From Polyangium sp. 15x6 (GTDB taxonomy: Bacteria > Myxococcota_A > Polyangia > Polyangiales > Polyangiaceae): DNA of 64,000 nucleotides. Made by a program: the position numbers and the translations under genes. Location of the stretch: the NCBI RefSeq assembly GCF_029960785.1, contig NZ_JASBQE010000010.1, positions 62,001 through 126,000 of the forward strand. Reading direction: 5' to 3'. The stretch's first letter is position 1. The number at the start of each line of letters is the position of its first letter. Under the pieces are notes generated by a model, which did no database searches, was not told the DNA's origin, and was given only the letters and a program-made list of their open reading frames with translations. This document shows positions 12,870 through 20,333 of the stretch, piece after piece.

Positions 12870-13988
12870 TCAACTCCTGGAGCTCAGCACGAGCCCACGG
12901 AACGCCGTCAGCGCCGTGCCGAGCCGGGCCTCGATCTCGCGGATCTCCTCGATGAGCTCGGCGTCGGGCACGCCCGCCGCGCGAGCCTCCCGCACACACG
13001 CGAACGCGGCCACGTAGCGCTGCCGCTTCACGTACGCCTTCGCCAGGAGCGGCCAGATGAGCTTGGGCGGCGCGCCGAGGCTCGCCGCGCGCCGGAGCCC
13101 GCCGATGGCCTCCCCTGCACGCCCGTTCTCGAGCTGCGCCTCCCCGAGCCGGCGGAAGATGTCCGCCGCCGCCGCACCATCCTGCGCGTACTGCACCGCG
13201 AGGCGCATGACCTCCTCGCCCTGGTGCTCCTCGCCGAGCTTGACGCACGCCGTGCCGAGCAAGCCGAGCCCCTTCGCGATGAGCGCGCGCGCGTCGGTCG
13301 TGAGCATCTGTCCCTCGGGCGTGCGAAGGAAGATCGCGAGCGGCGCCGGCCATGCGCCGAGGAGCTGCACCACGCGCGACCAGTCGCCGCGCTGGCTCGC
13401 CGCCTCGGCCTCCGCCACGCGCGTCAGATCGATCGCCGAGCGCGAGCCCGCCGAGGCACGCTCGAGCTCTTCGCGCACGTGCGCGCGGATGCGCGCCCGG
13501 AACTCTCCGAGCTCGTAGGTCTGCTCGAGGCCGTCGCGCAGGACGAGCAGCCTCGAGGTGCGACCGTCGACGTAGAGCTTGCGCAGGCTGTAGCCGAAGA
13601 GCGGCGCGAGCAGCAGGTAGCGCACGCCGATGTGGAGCTGCAGCGCTTCGATGTCCGTGTCGCGCTCGGGGGGGCCTGGCGTCGCGTCCTCGGTGAGGAG
13701 CGCGCCGACGAGCCGATGCCGGAAATCGGCCAGCGTGAGCCGCTGGACCTCGCTCTCTTCTTCTTCGTCGCCCGGAGGCGCGATGACGAAGTCGACGAGG
13801 GTGTTGTCGGGGTTGCGGCGGTCGACCGTGAGCGCGGTGATGCGCGCTCCCGTGATCATCGAAAAGGCGAAGAACGTCTCGCCGACGATGTCGCAGAGAG
13901 CCTGAAAGCTGCCGATCCCATCGCCGATGCGCTCGAACCAGCCGTCGGTGCGGACCGCATCGAGAGAGAAAACTCGTTCCTTCGCCAT
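12870..13988 (-). CDS. hypothetical protein, N-terminal unknown domain and TPR-like C-terminus
   Basis: A predicted cytoplasmic protein of 372 residues with no recognised family. The N-terminal third (DGWFERIGDGIGSFQALCD onwards) looks like a globular alpha/beta domain. The C-terminal half (about 220-360) is Ala/Leu-rich and helical, with TPR-like pairs such as GDWSRVVQLLGAW and LIWPLLAKAYVKRQRYVAAF. I chose MAKERVF as start because the coding pattern becomes regular there. The frame is open 28 codons further upstream from another ATG, and neither start has a good ribosome site. It lies between the TonB-like gene and nuoA on the same strand, with gaps over 200 nt on both sides, so it may be its own transcript. 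Confidence 0.65.
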   Translation of the reverse strand: MAKERVFSLDAVRTDGWFERIGDGIGSFQALCDIVGETFFAFSMITGARITALTVDRRNPDNTLVDFVIAPPGDEEEESEVQRLTLADFRHRLVGALLTEDATPGPPERDTDIEALQLHIGVRYLLLAPLFGYSLRKLYVDGRTSRLLVLRDGLEQTYELGEFRARIRAHVREELERASAGSRSAIDLTRVAEAEAASQRGDWSRVVQLLGAWPAPLAIFLRTPEGQMLTTDARALIAKGLGLLGTACVKLGEEHQGEEVMRLAVQYAQDGAAAADIFRRLGEAQLENGRAGEAIGGLRRAASLGAPPKLIWPLLAKAYVKRQRYVAAFACVREARAAGVPDAELIEEIREIEARLGTALTAFRGLVLSSRS

Positions 13989-14103
13989 GAGCGGGAGATT
14001 GGGGAGAGTCGCACGAGCCGCGCGGGATGTCACCGCCCGTGGTCGTCGCCGCGAGCAGTCTTGCCCGTCCATCGGGTCGCCGAAAAGCCCCCTTCTGCGA
14101 AGA

Positions 14104-14143
14104 ATTTTGTGCTTCGTGCCACAAAATCCTCAAAAACCTGAGG
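14104..14143. other. AT-rich patch with two inverted repeats
   Basis: ATTTTGTG-N8-CACAAAAT (14104-14127) is followed by CCTCA-N6-TGAGG (14128-14143). The patch is unusually AT-rich for this window and lies between the TonB-like gene stop and the next minus-strand gene. It may be an operator or a weak terminator; no long T run supports the latter. Confidence 0.3.
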
Positions 14144-14194
14144 GCGGGCCCACCAATCGACGCCAGGGCCGCGATTTTTGCGCGAACGCGCCGA

Positions 14195-15175
14195 TCAGGT
14201 CGCCGGGCGCGCGCTGGCGGAGGCGCGCACGTGGCGCTTGGGTCGCGCGCCGATGTTCGCCACGTCGAAGCTCACGCTGCCGCCGAGGCTGTCGCTCGAC
14301 CCGCCCTTGTTGATGTTCGTGCCGCCCGTGCTGCCGTCGGGCATCTGCAGCTGCGAGACGACCTCGACCATCACGATCGCGCCCTGCGCGTACGACTCCG
14401 GCAGCGTGAACTGACGGCTCGCGAGCCGACCGCTCACCGCGCCTGCGACCGCGCTCCAGTCGCCCGCGTTGCCCGCCGACGAACGCACGACACGCACGCT
14501 CGCCACGCGACCGCCGGGCGCGATGCGCACTTCGAGCGTCGCGCGCGCGACGTCGGGCGTGCCCGAGCCACGCACGACATCCGAGACGACGGACGCGATC
14601 GTGCCCGCGCCCGGCAGATCCAGGCCGAGCTGTCGATCCTTTTCGCGCATCACGTCGGAGATCACGCGGCCCGCGATCTTGCGATCGACCTCCGGCGGAG
14701 GCCCGACCGTGGTGGGCGCGGGCTTCGGCTTGCCCGCCTCGGGGATCACGCCGGGCATCGCCCACACGGGGCCGCCGATCCCGGGGATCCCGGGGCCTCC
14801 GGGCACCGGCGGCGGCGCGCCGTACTCGTCGGGCGGGCCCGCCGAAGGCGCGGCCGTCGGCACGGGCTCGACCTGCCGCGGCTCGCTGGTGTTGTTCGGT
14901 TGCGCGGTCGTCGGCTCCACGATGCGCGGGTCGACGGACTCCGTCGTGCGCGGACGCGTGTCGTTCATCGCGACGGCCGGATCCGGCTGGCGCTCGCGGA
15001 GTTCGTCCGGGCGCGGCGGCTCGATCGGGACGTCCTCGATGTCGATCTCCATGCGCCGCGCCATGCCGGTCGAGATCGCGAGGAGCGGCCCTTGAGGCTG
15101 CGGCGCGACTCGAGCGACGACCGGGATGAAAAAATGCAACCCGGTGGCGACGAGGACGAACTGGAGAAAGCGCAC
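14195..15175 (-). CDS. TonB-like periplasmic protein with Pro-rich linker
   Basis: A 326-residue protein built like a TonB or AgmX-type energy transducer. A single N-terminal hydrophobic helix (about 4-22) is followed by a Pro/Glu-rich periplasmic stretch (about 40-165, including GGPGIPGIGGP). A C-terminal globular part (about 170-300) resembles a TonB/TolA C-terminal fold, with ATLEVRIAPGGRVASVRVVRSSAG matching the usual 'variable output, added constant' TonB pattern. ExbB and ExbD genes are not adjacent. It sits 148 nt after the molybdenum hydroxylase operon on the same strand, so it could be linked to uptake of that enzyme's substrate; this is only a neighbourhood inference. Confidence 0.6.
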   Translation of the reverse strand: MRFLQFVLVATGLHFFIPVVARVAPQPQGPLLAISTGMARRMEIDIEDVPIEPPRPDELRERQPDPAVAMNDTRPRTTESVDPRIVEPTTAQPNNTSEPRQVEPVPTAAPSAGPPDEYGAPPPVPGGPGIPGIGGPVWAMPGVIPEAGKPKPAPTTVGPPPEVDRKIAGRVISDVMREKDRQLGLDLPGAGTIASVVSDVVRGSGTPDVARATLEVRIAPGGRVASVRVVRSSAGNAGDWSAVAGAVSGRLASRQFTLPESYAQGAIVMVEVVSQLQMPDGSTGGTNINKGGSSDSLGGSVSFDVANIGARPKRHVRASASARPAT

Positions 15176-15323: not shown

Positions 15324-16319
15324 TCAGCCTTCGAGGCGGAGGACGGCGCGCTCGACGAGGGCGGGGACCATCTCGCGGCGCCACTCGGTGTCGTCGTCGA
15401 CGTTCGGGAGCGGCTTGCACTCGGCGTAGGCGCCGCCTCCGAGCTCGCGCGCGGCGACGTCGAACGGCGTCCCGGGACCGATCTTCGAGGCGGCGCGGAT
15501 GCGGCGCGGGCGAGCGCCGAGCGCCGAGACGACGACGTCCGCGCCGTCGACGCGCGTCGTCTCCACGCCGGACACGTCGAGCCGCACGGCGATCGAGAGC
15601 AGCGGGAAGTCGATCGCGTTCCTCCGCCGAAGTTTCTCGAAGCTCGAACGGCGGCCGGGGCTTCGCGTGATGGAGACACGCACGACGAGCTCGCCGGGCT
15701 CGAGCACGGTGTTCTTCACGCCGTCGGCCACGTAGAAATCGTGAGCTTTTACGATGCGCGCGCCGCGCGGGCCGAGGAGATGGAGGTCGGCTTCGAGCGC
15801 GATGAGCGCGGGCGCCGTGTCGTTCGACGCAGCGGCGACGCAGCGGGATCCGCCGCGCACGACGTGGCAGACCGTGCCGTCCTTCTTGAGGCAAAAGCCC
15901 AGCGATTTGCGCCAGAAGTAGGTCTGGTTGTAGTAGCGGCAGCGCGTGTCGAGGCAGATGTTGCCGCCGAGCGTGCCCATGGCGCGGTGGTGTGGTCCGC
16001 CGACCTGGCCCGCGGCCTCGGCGAGCGCGGGCGCGATGCGACGCACGAGGATCGAGCTCTCGATCTCGGAAAGTCGCGCGCCCGCGCCGAGCACGAGCTT
16101 GTCGTCGTCGCCCTCGCGCACGAGCGAGATGCCGCCGAGCTCCTCGATGCCCGCGATGGAGACGACGTGCTCGGGCTCGACGAGCCCGTGCTTCATGTTG
16201 GGCAGCACGTCGGTGCCGCCCGCGATGACGACGGCCTTGTCGCCGAGGCGCGCGAGCAAGTCGATCGCTTCGGGGAGCGTGCGAGGCTTGTGATGATCGA
16301 AGACGGGCAGCGGTAACAC
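15324..16319 (-). CDS. molybdenum hydroxylase FAD subunit with extra [4Fe-4S] loop (HcrB-like)
   Basis: The medium, FAD-binding subunit (331 residues) of a xanthine-dehydrogenase-family enzyme. The flavin motif VIAGGTDVLPN (about 31-41) and TLGGN (116-120) are clear. An inserted loop carries Cys127, Cys143, Cys151 and Cys160. Their 16/8/9 spacing equals that of the four [4Fe-4S] ligands I recall for Thauera HcrB, the 4-hydroxybenzoyl-CoA reductase beta subunit. Such a cluster marks enzymes that can run reductively at low potential. I chose a GTG start preceded by GAGG, 7 nt after the stop of the large subunit. The open frame upstream overlaps that gene and looks like noise. The true substrate is unknown. 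Confidence 0.88.
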   Translation of the reverse strand: MLPLPVFDHHKPRTLPEAIDLLARLGDKAVVIAGGTDVLPNMKHGLVEPEHVVSIAGIEELGGISLVREGDDDKLVLGAGARLSEIESSILVRRIAPALAEAAGQVGGPHHRAMGTLGGNICLDTRCRYYNQTYFWRKSLGFCLKKDGTVCHVVRGGSRCVAAASNDTAPALIALEADLHLLGPRGARIVKAHDFYVADGVKNTVLEPGELVVRVSITRSPGRRSSFEKLRRRNAIDFPLLSIAVRLDVSGVETTRVDGADVVVSALGARPRRIRAASKIGPGTPFDVAARELGGGAYAECKPLPNVDDDTEWRREMVPALVERAVLRLEG

Positions 16320-16326
16320 GAGGACC

Positions 16327-18711
16327 TCACTCCGCAGCCGGGGGGTTCGGGGGCGCAGCTCCGCGTCGCGGAGCGAAGCCCCCGAGCGAAGAGTCGATCG
16401 ATGCGGCTTGCTCGTCGGCCTGCTTCTTCCGCAGGGCCGCGAGCACGCGCGCGGGCGAGAAGGGGAGCCTGTCGATGCGCACGCCGACGGCGTCGAAGAT
16501 GGCGTTCGCGATGGCCGGGATCGACGGATGCAGCGGGCCCTCGCCCGACTCCTTGGCGCCGAGCGGGCCCTCTTGATCCTCGGACTCGACGATGAGCGCA
16601 TGAAGATCCGGGACGTCGAGGCTCGTCGGGATCCGGTAGTCGAGCAGGTTCGGCCCCTTGTGCAGGCCGTCGGGGCCGATCACGTGCTCTTCGAGCAGCG
16701 CCTCGGCCGCGCCCATGTACGCCGATCCTTCCATCTGCCCCTCGACGATCACGGGACAGAGCGCCTTGCCGCAGTCGTGCGCGACCCAGATCTTCTCGAC
16801 GCGCACGAACCCCGAGCGCGAGTCGACCGAGACCTCGGCGACGTGCGCCGTGAACGAGTACGCGGGCGACGCGCCGATGGTGCCGCCGCGGTAGTCGCCG
16901 CCGAGCTTCGGCGTGTTGTAGTGGCCGACCGCGCCGAGCGTGCCGAACTTCGCCTCGGCGAGCTGGATGGCCTCGGTGACGGAGACGCCGCGGGCCGGAT
17001 CGTGCACGACGACGAGCGCGCCGCGCGTGACGAGCACGTTGCGCGGATCGACGTCGAGCTTCTCGGCGACGGCGGCGACGAGCTTGCTCTTGATCTCGCG
17101 CGCGGCCATCAGGCACGCGTTGCCGTTCATGAACGTGCCGCGCGAGGAGTAGGCGCCGAGGTCGACGGGCGTGAGGTCCGTGTCGCCGGAGACGACGCGC
17201 ACCGACCCGAGATCCAGCCCGAGCTCGTCGGCGACGAGCACGGCGAGCATGAGGTCGCAGCCCTGGCCGATCTCGCTTTGACCAGAAAAGACCGTCACGA
17301 CGCCCGAGCGATCGACCTTGAGCTGCACGGCGCTCTGGGGCATCGCGTTCGGGTAGATCGCGTAGTTCGTCCCGCTGATGTACGCGCTCGTCGCCACGCC
17401 GAGCCCGCGCCCCTTGGGCAGCTTGCCCCAGCGCTCCTTCCAGTCGCTTGCCTTCGCGACGGCGTCGAGGCACTGCTCGATGCCGTTCGAGGTGACGCGC
17501 AGGCCGTTCAGCGTGGTCGTGTTCGGCGGGACGAGGTTTTTCCTTCGCAGCTCGATCGGATCGATCCCGAGCGCGCGGGAGATCTTGTCGAGCGAGACCT
17601 CGAAGGCGAAGCGCGGCTGCACGCTGCCATGGCCGCGCTTCGGGCCGCACGGAGGCTTGTTCGTGAAGAGGCGCGTCGAGCGGAAGCGGTAGGTGTCGGC
17701 GAACGCGGGCAGCGTGAGGAGCTGACCCGAGTAGTACGTCGTGACGAGGCCGAACGAGGAGTACGCGCCGCCGTCGATGAACGTGCGCGCGTCGACGCCC
17801 GTGAGCTTGCCGTCGCGCTTCGCGCCGACCTTCATGTGGATCTGCATCGGGTGACGACCACGATGCGCGTAAAACTCCTCTTCGCGCGTGTAGAGGAACT
17901 TCACGGGGCGGCCCGTGATCATCGCGAGCTTCGCCGCGCAGAACTCGAGCGAAAAAGGCTCGCTCTTGCCGCCGAACGCGCCGCCGACGGGCGGCTGGAT
18001 GACGCGGATGCGCGTGGGCGGGACGCGCAAGACACGCGAGAGCTCGCGGTGCAGGTAGTGCGGGACCTGCGTCGTCGACCAGACCGTGAGCAGGCCGTTC
18101 TTGTCGAGGTTCCCGATGGCGCAGTGGGTCTCGATCGGGACGTGCGCGCTGCCCTCGTAGTAGTAGTCGCCCTCCGTGACGACGTCGCTCCCGGCGAGCG
18201 CGGCGTCGACGTCCCCGAACGCGAGGTCGACCTCCTTCGAGACGTTGTCCTTGCCGCCCTTGCCGAGCCCGATCTCGGGCTTGTCGATCGCCGTCTGCAG
18301 ATCGGTCGCGGCCGGCAGCACCTCGTACTCGACGTCCACGAGCTCCGCGGCCTCGTGCGCGATGCGCTCGTCGGTCGCGGCGACCGCAGCGACGGCATCG
18401 CCGATGAAGCGCGCGTGGTCGAGGGCGAGCGGGTACTCGTCCGGCGTCCACGGGATGATGCCGAAGCGCTCGGGCATGTCCTTGCCCGTGATGACGGCGA
18501 TGACGCCGGGCTTCGCGAGCGCGCGCGTCGCGTCGATGCGCACGATGCGCGCGTGCGGATGCGGTGAGCGGACGATCCGACCCCACAGCATGCGCGGCAG
18601 GTGGATGTCGTCGGTGTAGCGGACCTGCCCGGTCACGCGCGGCGCGAGCAGCGTGCGCGTCCGGCTGCCGACGAGGCCCCGGAGCCCACTCGGCTTTCCC
18701 GTGTCCGTCAT
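16327..18711 (-). CDS. molybdenum hydroxylase large subunit, molybdopterin-binding (HcrA-like)
   Basis: The catalytic subunit (794 residues) of the xanthine dehydrogenase/aldehyde oxidase family, which binds the Mo-molybdopterin cofactor. Conserved blocks include the N-terminal RYTDDIHLPRMLWG, VGGAFGGKSEPFSLE, NKPPCGPKRGHG, GQSEIGQGCDLMLA and the catalytic glutamate in KESGEGPLHPS (Glu724). The CGPKRGHG block and AHDCGKALCPVIVEGQ are of the kind seen in hydroxybenzoyl-CoA reductase relatives. It starts 2 nt after the fused synthase/[2Fe-2S] gene and is followed after 7 nt by the FAD subunit, giving a small-large-medium operon. No molybdopterin insertion chaperone (XdhC/CoxF type) lies nearby. 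Confidence 0.9.
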   Translation of the reverse strand: MTDTGKPSGLRGLVGSRTRTLLAPRVTGQVRYTDDIHLPRMLWGRIVRSPHPHARIVRIDATRALAKPGVIAVITGKDMPERFGIIPWTPDEYPLALDHARFIGDAVAAVAATDERIAHEAAELVDVEYEVLPAATDLQTAIDKPEIGLGKGGKDNVSKEVDLAFGDVDAALAGSDVVTEGDYYYEGSAHVPIETHCAIGNLDKNGLLTVWSTTQVPHYLHRELSRVLRVPPTRIRVIQPPVGGAFGGKSEPFSLEFCAAKLAMITGRPVKFLYTREEEFYAHRGRHPMQIHMKVGAKRDGKLTGVDARTFIDGGAYSSFGLVTTYYSGQLLTLPAFADTYRFRSTRLFTNKPPCGPKRGHGSVQPRFAFEVSLDKISRALGIDPIELRRKNLVPPNTTTLNGLRVTSNGIEQCLDAVAKASDWKERWGKLPKGRGLGVATSAYISGTNYAIYPNAMPQSAVQLKVDRSGVVTVFSGQSEIGQGCDLMLAVLVADELGLDLGSVRVVSGDTDLTPVDLGAYSSRGTFMNGNACLMAAREIKSKLVAAVAEKLDVDPRNVLVTRGALVVVHDPARGVSVTEAIQLAEAKFGTLGAVGHYNTPKLGGDYRGGTIGASPAYSFTAHVAEVSVDSRSGFVRVEKIWVAHDCGKALCPVIVEGQMEGSAYMGAAEALLEEHVIGPDGLHKGPNLLDYRIPTSLDVPDLHALIVESEDQEGPLGAKESGEGPLHPSIPAIANAIFDAVGVRIDRLPFSPARVLAALRKKQADEQAASIDSSLGGFAPRRGAAPPNPPAAE

Positions 18712-18713
18712 GG

Positions 18714-20333
18714 CTAGCCCTGCCTCCCTTCGCGCGAGCTCTTGTTCGAAGGCAACGGCGGCGGCGTGTTCTCGATCCCCGGCAGGCCCACGCCCGCCTC
18801 CGCCTCGCCGCGCCGGATCTTCGCCGCGAGATCGATCGCGTCGACGATCTTCCCGTAGCCGGTACAGCGGCAGAGGTTGCCCGCGATCGCGCACTTGATC
18901 TCGTCGCGCGTCGGTCGCGGGTTCCTGTCGAGCAGCGCCGTCGCGGTCATGAGCATGCCGGGCGTGCAGAAGCCGCACTGCCCGCCGCCGAGCCTGTCGA
19001 AGCCGTCGAGCAGCGCGTCGATGTGCGGCGCGCCTTCGAGCGTCTCCACCGTGCGCACGTCCTTGCCGTCCGCGTCGAGCGCGAGCGTGAGGCAGGAGAG
19101 GGTCGCGACGCCGTCCACGACGACCGTACACGCGCCGCAATCGCCCTTGTCACAGCCCTGCTTCGTGCCGACGAGGTCGAGGTCGTACCGCAGCGCTTCG
19201 AGCAGCGTCCTGCGCGGAGGGACGGCGAGCGCGACGGCGCTGCCGCCGATCTTCATGCACATCGGTACGAGTTTTTCCATGGGCTCCAGGGGCTCCGATG
19301 CTGGCGCCTCCTCGGGCGTCGCGTGGTAGGGACGTACCTCGAAACGCGCGCCGCGCATGTCCGCGCCGGCGATCGGATGCCCCGCGGGGATGGGATACCG
19401 GAGCGCGCGGGAGGCGAGCTCGCAATACTCGACGAGGCGCGCCTCGGGGACACGCGGACGCGCGCCGAGGAGGCCGAGGTTCTCGACGAGCAGCTCGAGG
19501 CTCGTGTTGCCGACCCGCTCGCCGACGCCGAGGCCGGTGCCGTGCACACGGTCGACGCCCGAGGCGGCCGCCCAGAGCGCGTTCGGCAGGCCGATGCCGC
19601 GGTCGTTGTGCCCGTGCCAGTCGAGCTCGACGTGCCGCGCGCCGAGCTCGTCGAGGGTGCGTCGCGCGAAGCAGACGAGCGCCTCGATGCCGTACGGCGT
19701 GACGTGGCCGGTGGTGTCGCAGATGCAAATGCGGCCCGCGCCCGCGTCGATGGCGGCGCTGTAGAGGCATCGAAGGACGTCGGGGTTCGAGCGGGTCGTG
19801 TCCTCGGTGACGAGGCAGAAGGGCAAGCCCGCGGCCTTGGCCTCGCGCGCGGCGGCGGTGATGGCGCCGATGAGGAAGCCCGTGTCCCAGCCTTCGACGG
19901 CGAGGCGAATGGGGGAGCTGCCGATGAAGGCGTAGACCTCGATGGGGATGCCGGCGCGATCGGCGGCGCGGGCGATGCCGTGGACGTCGGCGACGACGGT
20001 GCGCGCGGCGGCGGTGGGGACGACGCGGAGCTTGGAGCGGACGATCTCGCGGCAGAGGAGGAAACAATCCTCGGCATTGGCGAGGCCGGCGGCGGGAAGT
20101 CCGACGCTGACGACGTCGACGCCGATCGCGGCCATGGCGTAGAGGAGATCGATCTTCTGCGCGGCATCGGGCTGATAGCCGGCGGCGCTCTGCAATCCAT
20201 CCCGGAGGGTCTCGTCGACGACCTTGACGGCCCGCACCCTGCGCGCGAAGTCGCGCCGCACGGGCCCGCCGGAGAGGGAGAGCACGCGGCCCGATCCATC
20301 GACGGACGGGACGCTGTCGTTCCAGTCGTACAT
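18714..20333 (-). CDS. isopropylmalate-synthase-like domain fused to molybdenum hydroxylase [2Fe-2S] subunit
   Basis: One uninterrupted frame of 539 residues joins two enzymes. Residues about 35-330 are a DRE-TIM barrel of the isopropylmalate/homocitrate synthase type: DETLRDGLQ (40-48), EDTTRSNPD, DTTGHVTP, the metal-binding HGHND (His240, His242) and GERVGN. Residues about 355-500 are the small subunit of a molybdenum hydroxylase with all eight Fe-S cysteines (394, 399, 402, 414; 453, 456, 488, 490). A linker rich in Pro and Glu (about 335-352) joins them. Met352 has GGAG 3 nt upstream, so the ferredoxin part might also be made alone. The two subunits that follow are the rest of the hydroxylase. 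A condensation or cleavage step physically tied to a hydroxylation or dehydroxylation is suggested; the substrate is unknown. Confidence 0.9.
   Translation of the reverse strand: MYDWNDSVPSVDGSGRVLSLSGGPVRRDFARRVRAVKVVDETLRDGLQSAAGYQPDAAQKIDLLYAMAAIGVDVVSVGLPAAGLANAEDCFLLCREIVRSKLRVVPTAAARTVVADVHGIARAADRAGIPIEVYAFIGSSPIRLAVEGWDTGFLIGAITAAAREAKAAGLPFCLVTEDTTRSNPDVLRCLYSAAIDAGAGRICICDTTGHVTPYGIEALVCFARRTLDELGARHVELDWHGHNDRGIGLPNALWAAASGVDRVHGTGLGVGERVGNTSLELLVENLGLLGARPRVPEARLVEYCELASRALRYPIPAGHPIAGADMRGARFEVRPYHATPEEAPASEPLEPMEKLVPMCMKIGGSAVALAVPPRRTLLEALRYDLDLVGTKQGCDKGDCGACTVVVDGVATLSCLTLALDADGKDVRTVETLEGAPHIDALLDGFDRLGGGQCGFCTPGMLMTATALLDRNPRPTRDEIKCAIAGNLCRCTGYGKIVDAIDLAAKIRRGEAEAGVGLPGIENTPPPLPSNKSSREGRQG

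Follow-up and report, generated by a model that had tools for sequence, protein, structure and literature searches.

4-Hydroxybenzoyl-CoA reductase (HCR) of Thauera aromatica (PDB 1rm6/1sb3; NCBIfam TIGR03193/03194/03195) consists of a molybdenum (Mo; alpha), an FAD (beta), and a [2Fe-2S] (gamma) subunit, and it is said in the title of its structure paper to have an additional [4Fe-4S] cluster and inverted electron flow. The 2-isopropylmalate, homocitrate, and methylthioalkylmalate synthases (6e1j, 3rmj, 6ktq) are enzymes of another kind, with a DRE-TIM barrel followed by a lid that bears a catalytic His and Tyr; 3-hydroxy-3-methylglutaryl (HMG)-CoA lyase and the 4-hydroxy-2-oxovalerate aldolases (DmpG/HsaF/AmnG type) are lid-less lyases of the same superfamily, in which lyases, aldolases, and carboxyltransferases make up the rest of the lid-less proteins. 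In this study, we analyzed a 64,000-nucleotide stretch of the genome of the soil bacterium Polyangium sp. 15x6 (contig NZ_JASBQE010000010.1, positions 62,001 to 126,000; assembly size, 13.4 Mb), called the window below, in which a single gene joins a DRE-TIM barrel to an HCR-like gamma subunit. Our analysis established the fusion itself, the tight order of the fused gene and the genes for the other two subunits, the presence of the cofactor-ligand cysteines, and a link of some relatives to benzoyl-CoA genes. The explanation that we tentatively favor is that the product is an HCR-like gamma subunit with a tethered metal-dependent barrel, perhaps a C–C lyase, whose alpha and beta partners would be encoded by the next two genes. 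The fused gene and its parts are as follows.

18714..20333, minus strand: fused gene, 539 amino acids, encoding a lid-less DRE-TIM barrel, a linker, and an HCR-like gamma subunit with two [2Fe-2S] clusters
19353..20231, minus strand: DRE-TIM barrel, residues 35-327, recognized by the Pfam family HMGL-like, its active-site residues, and a structure match, and ending without a lid
19266..19352, minus strand: linker, residues 328-356, the first part of which is predicted to be floppy (predicted local distance difference test [pLDDT] score below 50 at residues 328-349)
18798..19265, minus strand: [2Fe-2S] subunit domain, residues 357-512, recognized by its eight cysteines, Pfam, and 1rm6_C as best match

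The gene runs on the minus strand from an ATG at 20333 to a stop codon ending at 18714 as one frame of 539 amino acids with no internal stop; 18714-20333 read on the plus strand does not give the fused protein. A sequence-only reading of this DNA had described one uninterrupted frame in which a barrel with the motifs DETLRDGLQ, HGHND, and GERVGN is joined to a complete small subunit of a molybdenum hydroxylase with eight Fe-S cysteines, and had judged neither half to be decayed. This description was borne out. All three motifs are present, and the eight cysteines fall into the two usual patterns (C394, C399, C402, and C414; C453, C456, C488, and C490). Pfam finds HMGL-like in the first half (residues 36-300) and Fer2 and Fer2_2 in the second (residues 362-413 and 428-500). 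Neither half has lost its key residues, and the pooled dN/dS over the 15 pairs formed by six Polyangium sequences is 0.138 for the barrel, 0.311 for the linker, and 0.136 for the Fe-S half, values that indicate purifying selection on both halves.

The sequence-only reading had also raised the possibilities that a sequencing error had joined two genes and that the homologues are always two separate genes. Neither is the case. A search of 144 genomes of the order showed the fused frame open in all six Polyangium genomes (89-100% identity). Over all loci fetched, 15 distinct full-length frames are fused, with the halves in the same order; besides these, the frame of one further genome (G162) is open up to a contig end that cuts inside the barrel. 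The fusions span nine genera of one family, the named members being Polyangiaceae. Among 377 genomes sampled from the phylum, nine have matches at an E value of ≤1e-92, of which eight are fusions of this same family and the ninth (G220) is a lid-bearing paralogue. The same open frame across genomes, together with selection on both halves, excludes a sequencing or assembly error, a chimera, and chance, and we regard it as confirmed that the fusion is real and common to related genera. Met352 as a separate start was rejected, since it is not conserved: the aligned residue is Gly in G088, and six other genera (L026-L031) have no Met there. Beyond Myxococcota, no fusion was found among the 80 loci kept out of 383 confirmed stretches, a set in which a few loci are labeled Acidobacteriota, Gemmatimonadota, or Pseudomonadota. 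The titles and abstract openings of the open-licence papers searched yielded no account of a barrel-gamma fusion.

A good number of relatives carry the two halves as separate genes, and the tree shows switching between the fused and the unfused state, with at least four changes for the fused label, so that the fusion may have been gained separately more than once. In two loci (L058 and L069), the halves are adjacent open reading frames in different frames. Such a pattern would suit a functionally neutral fusion, in which a stop codon between two operon genes was lost by chance and a harmless linker was kept. We consider this unlikely; the fusion has been kept over nine genera, and a difference in gene content between fused and unfused genomes, described below, also speaks against it.

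The two genes that follow the fused gene encode the remaining subunits of a Mo enzyme.

16327..18711, minus strand: Mo (alpha) subunit, 794 amino acids, beginning 2 bases past the stop of the fused gene; TIGR03194, 1rm6_A
15324..16319, minus strand: FAD (beta) subunit, 331 amino acids, with a GTG start 7 bases past the alpha stop; TIGR03195, 1rm6_B

Adjacent Mo, FAD, and [2Fe-2S] subunits of the HCR type are thus all present, with the fused protein as gamma. The next best Fe-S matches in the genome are 49% and 46% identical, and the first adjoins its own, 32%-identical alpha; with these matches distant and one of them provided with an alpha of its own, no other gamma candidate fits the operon. 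HCR is the best solved match for all three proteins. Alpha scores 614.7 bits against 1rm6_A and 289.8 against the next best structure, and beta scores 197.5 bits against 1rm6_B and 99.8 against the next; for gamma, 1rm6_C comes first by a margin that does not discriminate (149.3 versus 145.7 bits). Five cysteines of beta (C117, C122, C138, C146, and C155, counted from the alignment) align with the [4Fe-4S] loop of 1rm6_B, and the four cluster ligands are presumably among them. The best NCBIfam families are likewise the HCR gamma, alpha, and beta models, although each protein scores under the cut-off (TIGR03193, 159.8/257.8 bits; TIGR03194, 828.2/994.55; TIGR03195, 261/404.55). As all three scores are under these equivalog cut-offs, we name the enzyme HCR-like and not HCR. 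The Polyangium enzyme further differs from that of T. aromatica in the N-terminal barrel of about 330 residues that its gamma subunit bears.

The low family scores weigh against a role like that of HCR and would suit an ordinary oxidizing hydroxylase or aldehyde oxidase whose resemblance to HCR reflects ancestry only. That alternative appears quite improbable, since 1rm6_A scores over double any other solved relative of alpha and beta retains the extra-loop cysteines. In addition, relatives that lie inside benzoyl-CoA operons also miss the cut-offs: the subunits of L127, within a benzoyl-CoA reductase (BCR) operon, reach 862.5/994.55 (alpha), 302/404.55 (beta), and 195.3/257.8 (gamma), and the alpha of L042, within a BCR cluster, reaches 856.1 bits. 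By these comparisons, the Mo enzyme probably has an HCR-like role. The molybdenum hydroxylase named in the sequence-only reading was therefore right as to family, but the closest likeness is to a reductive dehydroxylase and not to a generic hydroxylase.

The barrel keeps an active site and lacks a lid. R44, D45 (metal), Q48, E177, T207, H240 and H242 (metal), E272, and N276 are invariant in 33/33 lid-less and 60/60 lid-bearing rows, D40 is likewise invariant in both groups, and GERxGN (columns 271-276) occurs in all 33 lid-less rows, which include loci chosen for nearness to HCR genes. Lid-bearing proteins have about 410-440 amino acids, with TGVHA after the barrel; lid-less proteins end shortly past the barrel or continue into the Fe-S half, and the lid with its catalytic His and Tyr is absent from every lid-less row, the fused protein included. 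The label of an isopropylmalate synthase-like domain, also from the sequence-only reading, stands for the fold, the motifs, and the metal site, but the absent lid excludes a complete isopropylmalate synthase. The barrel has no regulatory domain either and falls far under the NCBIfam cut-offs for LeuA, NifV, and citramalate synthase (best, 121.2 bits versus 462.9 for nifV). An AlphaFold2 model of the fused protein (pLDDT, 81.6; predicted template modeling score [pTM], 0.61; 40 sequences) contains a barrel of eight strands and two additional helices, joined to the Fe-S domain by a linker that is of low confidence at 328-349. The model barrel is closest to 6e1j_A (Z, 37.3; root mean square deviation [rmsd], 2.1; 291 residues aligned), with homocitrate and isopropylmalate synthases also close. 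HMG-CoA lyases and aldolases come next by structure (Z, 27-31), among them the HMG-CoA lyase 1ydo_A (Z, 28.5; rmsd, 2.9; 279 aligned), at 16-22% identity. The 4-hydroxy-2-oxovalerate aldolases are described in structure titles as complexes with a dehydrogenase, which resembles the tethering of the barrel to a second enzyme.

What the missing lid means for the chemistry can be judged from methylthioalkylmalate synthase. The passages available from PMC11532901 give the lid residue His388 as the likely general base, with Tyr399 stacked on it, and report H388A and Y399S as inactive. Since the barrel has no such lid, its sequence makes an ordinary Claisen condensation improbable. The absence of the lid, together with the occurrence of lyases, aldolases, and carboxyltransferases among the other lid-less members of the superfamily, underlies our guess of a lyase. 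HMG-CoA lyase has a catalytic cysteine loop; the barrel has the condensing-type GERxGN in place of that loop, which counts against the guess. An alternative is that the barrel is still a Claisen-type synthase making a 2-alkylmalate or a citrate-type product, the loss of the lid having been solved in some other way, for example, to feed a 2-oxoglutarate:ferredoxin oxidoreductase for electrons. The conservation of GERxGN, E272, and the metal site would fit, and so would the low activity retained by H388N and Y399F, by which activity does not strictly depend on the lid residues (same passages of PMC11532901). We hold this alternative to be rather unlikely because the lid His and Tyr, which are needed for normal methylthioalkylmalate synthase activity according to those passages, are absent here and because the unfused lid-less proteins end shortly past the barrel and so offer no obvious replacement for the lid.

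The evolutionary history of the barrel bears on whether it is still an enzyme. When 93 barrels are placed on a tree, one branch (SH-aLRT, 89) separates the 33 lid-less rows from the 60 lid-bearing ones; in a smaller tree, lid-bearing L044 groups beside two long lid-less rows (80/78). Nearest outside the lid-less group are full-length isopropylmalate synthase (IPMS)-like paralogues of Myxococcota (such as L002 and L124), with 42-50% identity to the barrel of the window and the same N-terminal DWN signature; they differ in having a lid. L002 (G000:C265:39835-40716) is one such lid-bearing paralogue of the DWN type, and in the search of the order, matches of about 45-50% identity were common, often in frames near 430 amino acids. 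Three Sorangium genomes (So ce26, So0157-2, and So ceGT47) and G133 have a lid-less barrel, and the best alpha match in these genomes is 32-33% identical. Their barrels keep all active-site residues (dN/dS, 0.344) and belong to a 14-row set (100/99) in which 10 rows are fused; the adjoining clades also hold fused rows. Given this nesting among fused rows, the simplest account is that Sorangium lost the reductase and retained the barrel. Two further loci (L055 and L068) have a lid-less barrel without HCR, the best alpha matches being 40% and 38% identical.

These observations bear on an alternative in which the barrel is no longer an enzyme but a ligand-binding sensor (of a 2-oxoacid or CoA compound) or an assembly domain that modulates the reductase. 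Such a domain would be in keeping with the predicted floppiness of the linker and with the absence, in all 33 lid-less rows, of the lid and its catalytic His and Tyr. Against it stand the nine metal and catalytic residues kept in every one of those rows and the retention of the barrel alone, without a close alpha, in Sorangium, although the constraint there is weaker than in Polyangium, a point that tells against an active barrel. A role as a pure HCR scaffold is weakened by Sorangium as well. We consider a sensor or assembly domain unlikely. An active, non-Claisen enzyme, supported by the invariant active site and by the intact Sorangium barrels, is a reasonable but still tentative reading of the sequence evidence. 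The lid-less proteins form a DRE-TIM group that keeps the barrel active site and that would be misnamed isopropylmalate synthases by similarity.

The genomic neighborhood links lid-less barrels to HCR genes. Of the 80 loci in the set, 79 were classified (L117, without a DRE motif, was dropped), and an HCR-type subunit lies in the flank of 16/21 lid-less and 0/58 lid-bearing loci. Since 11 of the 16 are fusions, counted by construction, the telling figure is that for unfused loci, 5/10 versus 0/58 (Fisher, 2e-5); flanks of at least 3 kb on both sides are available for 36 of the 58 lid-bearing loci, and in the other 22 one flank or both is shorter than that. Locus L042 (G063) carries on one strand a lid-less barrel, a Crp-type regulator, Had, Oah, a dienoyl-CoA hydratase-like protein, BcrC, BcrB, BcrA, BcrD, and gamma, alpha, and beta, an unfused trio whose alpha is 59-60% identical. 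Five of the seven BCR-pathway proteins scored there pass their NCBIfam cut-offs (BcrD, BcrB, BcrC, Oah, and Had), whereas BcrA (529/578) and the hydratase (221.4/292.5) fail. L127 (4852-18438; G104:C46) has a class I BCR operon, Had-Oah-ECH-BcrCBAD-gamma-alpha-beta, all on one strand, and BoxB adjoins it in convergent orientation, so that genes for anaerobic and aerobic benzoyl-CoA breakdown stand side by side. L142 (G078) has the same kind of BCR and HCR operon, and the barrel gene is absent from that stretch. In two other loci, L040 (7569-14178; G084) and L041 (4502-13866; G051), a gamma-like gene lies about 5-8 kb from a lid-less barrel and alpha and beta are on another contig; B12-binding, Sel1, and PBP genes beside L040 were considered as partners and looked like chance.

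Several features of these neighborhoods weigh against a lyase working with the reductase. Half of the unfused lid-less loci (5/10) have no HCR gene in the flank, and HCR does not need the barrel: trios occur without a barrel gene nearby, and none was found near the HCR genes of G042, G078, G109, G161, and G146 in the fetched stretches. Trios of this kind would also suit the sensor or assembly domain discussed above. The main link between barrel and reductase is the fusion, and for this reason the weaker neighborhood argument (5/10) leaves our assessment as it was. Other neighbors would suit a condensing enzyme. Lid-bearing IPMS-like proteins adjoin HCR genes in L034 and L035, which are outside the 58-locus count, and in L094 (1-8915; an Acidobacteria metagenome-assembled genome), which is inside it, a lid-bearing IPMS-like gene is divergent from a BCR-ECH-Oah-Had cluster. 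Four loci, L030, L036, L055, and L068, have an aconitase/LeuC-type gene, which fits alkylmalate chemistry, close to the lid-less barrel. These neighbors favor the Claisen-type synthase weighed above, and they suggest that chemistry of the alkylmalate type played a part at some point in the history of this association. The aconitase-family proteins have 630-690 amino acids (L030:2983-5043, L036:9778-11676, L055:9678-11660, and L068:5797-7785; L030 is the same locus as L062), and the L030 copy, the only one scanned, has its swivel domain N-terminal, ahead of the aconitase domain. Distant aconitase-type matches (33-37%) also lie near two lid-bearing paralogues, L059 and L103. No conserved third partner of the fused gene emerged when the genes of 20 loci and of the window were clustered: beyond barrel/gamma, alpha, and beta, every family is confined to at most 3 of the 21 sequences. 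For comparison, the terms isopropylmalate, homocitrate, and hydroxymethylglutaryl are absent from the main text of a paper on Geobacter metallireducens (PMC1924859).

The fate of benzoyl-CoA in these bacteria can be approached through co-occurrence. In a sample of 74 genomes of the family, alpha (E ≤ 1e-190) is present in 23, BoxB, the aerobic epoxidase (E ≤ 1e-80), in 47, and the BCR-type genes that we call HGD-D in 21; 46 of the 47 BoxB matches are over the cut-off, the 47th (G139) being a fragment under it. BoxB is found in 22/23 genomes with alpha versus 25/51 without (Fisher, 6e-5), HGD-D in 13/23 versus 8/51 (6e-4), and either of them in 23/23 versus 30/51 (1.4e-4), tests that all ignore shared ancestry. 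Thirteen of the 23 genomes with alpha, G162 counted, are fused, and all 13 have BoxB. This differs from the setting of HCR itself in that 10 of the 13 are without HGD-D genes; the 3/13 with HGD-D compares with 10/10 of the unfused HCR genomes, a difference that ignores relatedness and in which G146 and G161 were labeled unfused from the surroundings of their alpha gene only. With relatedness thus uncorrected, the contrast is the second point against the neutral fusion considered above. All six Polyangium genomes, that of the window included, have BoxB over the cut-off and a benzoate-CoA-ligase-family gene over its cut-off; for the ligase, five have a copy at 764-772 bits and G088 has a single one at 483. 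None of the six has HGD-D genes.

On the basis of these findings, we propose the following mechanism for the HCR-like gamma subunit with its tethered barrel. Electrons would enter via the FAD/[4Fe-4S] beta subunit and pass through the two [2Fe-2S] clusters to Mo, where the complex would strip the para-hydroxyl group from an aryl-CoA such as 4-hydroxybenzoyl-CoA and yield benzoyl-CoA. In Polyangium, the aerobic Box epoxidase route would then use up the benzoyl-CoA. The barrel may derive from a lid-bearing IPMS-like paralogue that later lost its lid, and may act as a lid-less lyase of the retro-aldol type that cleaves an intermediate from the same aromatic pathway, either a CoA compound or a 2-oxoacid, with the flexible linker tethering it to the reductase. 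A specific reaction, cleavage of 3-hydroxy-3-(4-hydroxyphenyl)propanoyl-CoA to 4-hydroxybenzaldehyde and acetyl-CoA, can be written down, and we think it very doubtful.

A natural fusion suggests that the two activities belong together, and this one points to a so far unrecognized partner of a low-potential aromatic dehydroxylase. It also raises the question of whether such a dehydroxylase works in aerobes beside the Box pathway. A wider speculation, to which we give little weight, is that Polyangium and its kin have an aerobic route for para-hydroxylated aromatic acids in which HCR-like dehydroxylation leads to the Box epoxidase and a built-in lid-less, IPMS-derived DRE-TIM lyase makes or protects an intermediate. 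The fusion would then be a sign that a dehydroxylase of anaerobes had been taken into aerobic metabolism, in keeping with the BoxB and HGD-D counts of fused and unfused genomes given above. Anaerobes are where HCR chemistry is known, Polyangium has no HGD-D genes, BoxB is common in the family anyway (47/74), and the BoxB gene of the window genome is on a different contig from the fused operon; all of this tells against such a route and against the Box step of the mechanism proposed above. Without HGD-D genes in Polyangium and with BoxB on another contig, the link to Box is one of co-occurrence, not adjacency. Our search of the open-licence literature found no worked-out account of such an aerobic para-hydroxyl route; HCR and Box genes occur within the genomes of one group in the gene lists given for SAR324 bins (PMC4782131). 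Beyond the pathway, the fusion exposes a DRE-TIM group that keeps the barrel active site without the lid that condensing enzymes use.

Two smaller observations concern genes beside the operons. In the window, two genes without a Pfam match (326 and 400 amino acids; 12870-15175) follow the operon, and their order is kept in G098 and G088. A GNAT acetyltransferase-like gene adjoins the HCR/BCR genes in five genomes (L035:6471-7433, L037:5836-6315, L042:5816-6229, L133:5729-6169, and L142:7686-8204); in other bacteria, GNAT acetyltransferases regulate aromatic CoA ligases.

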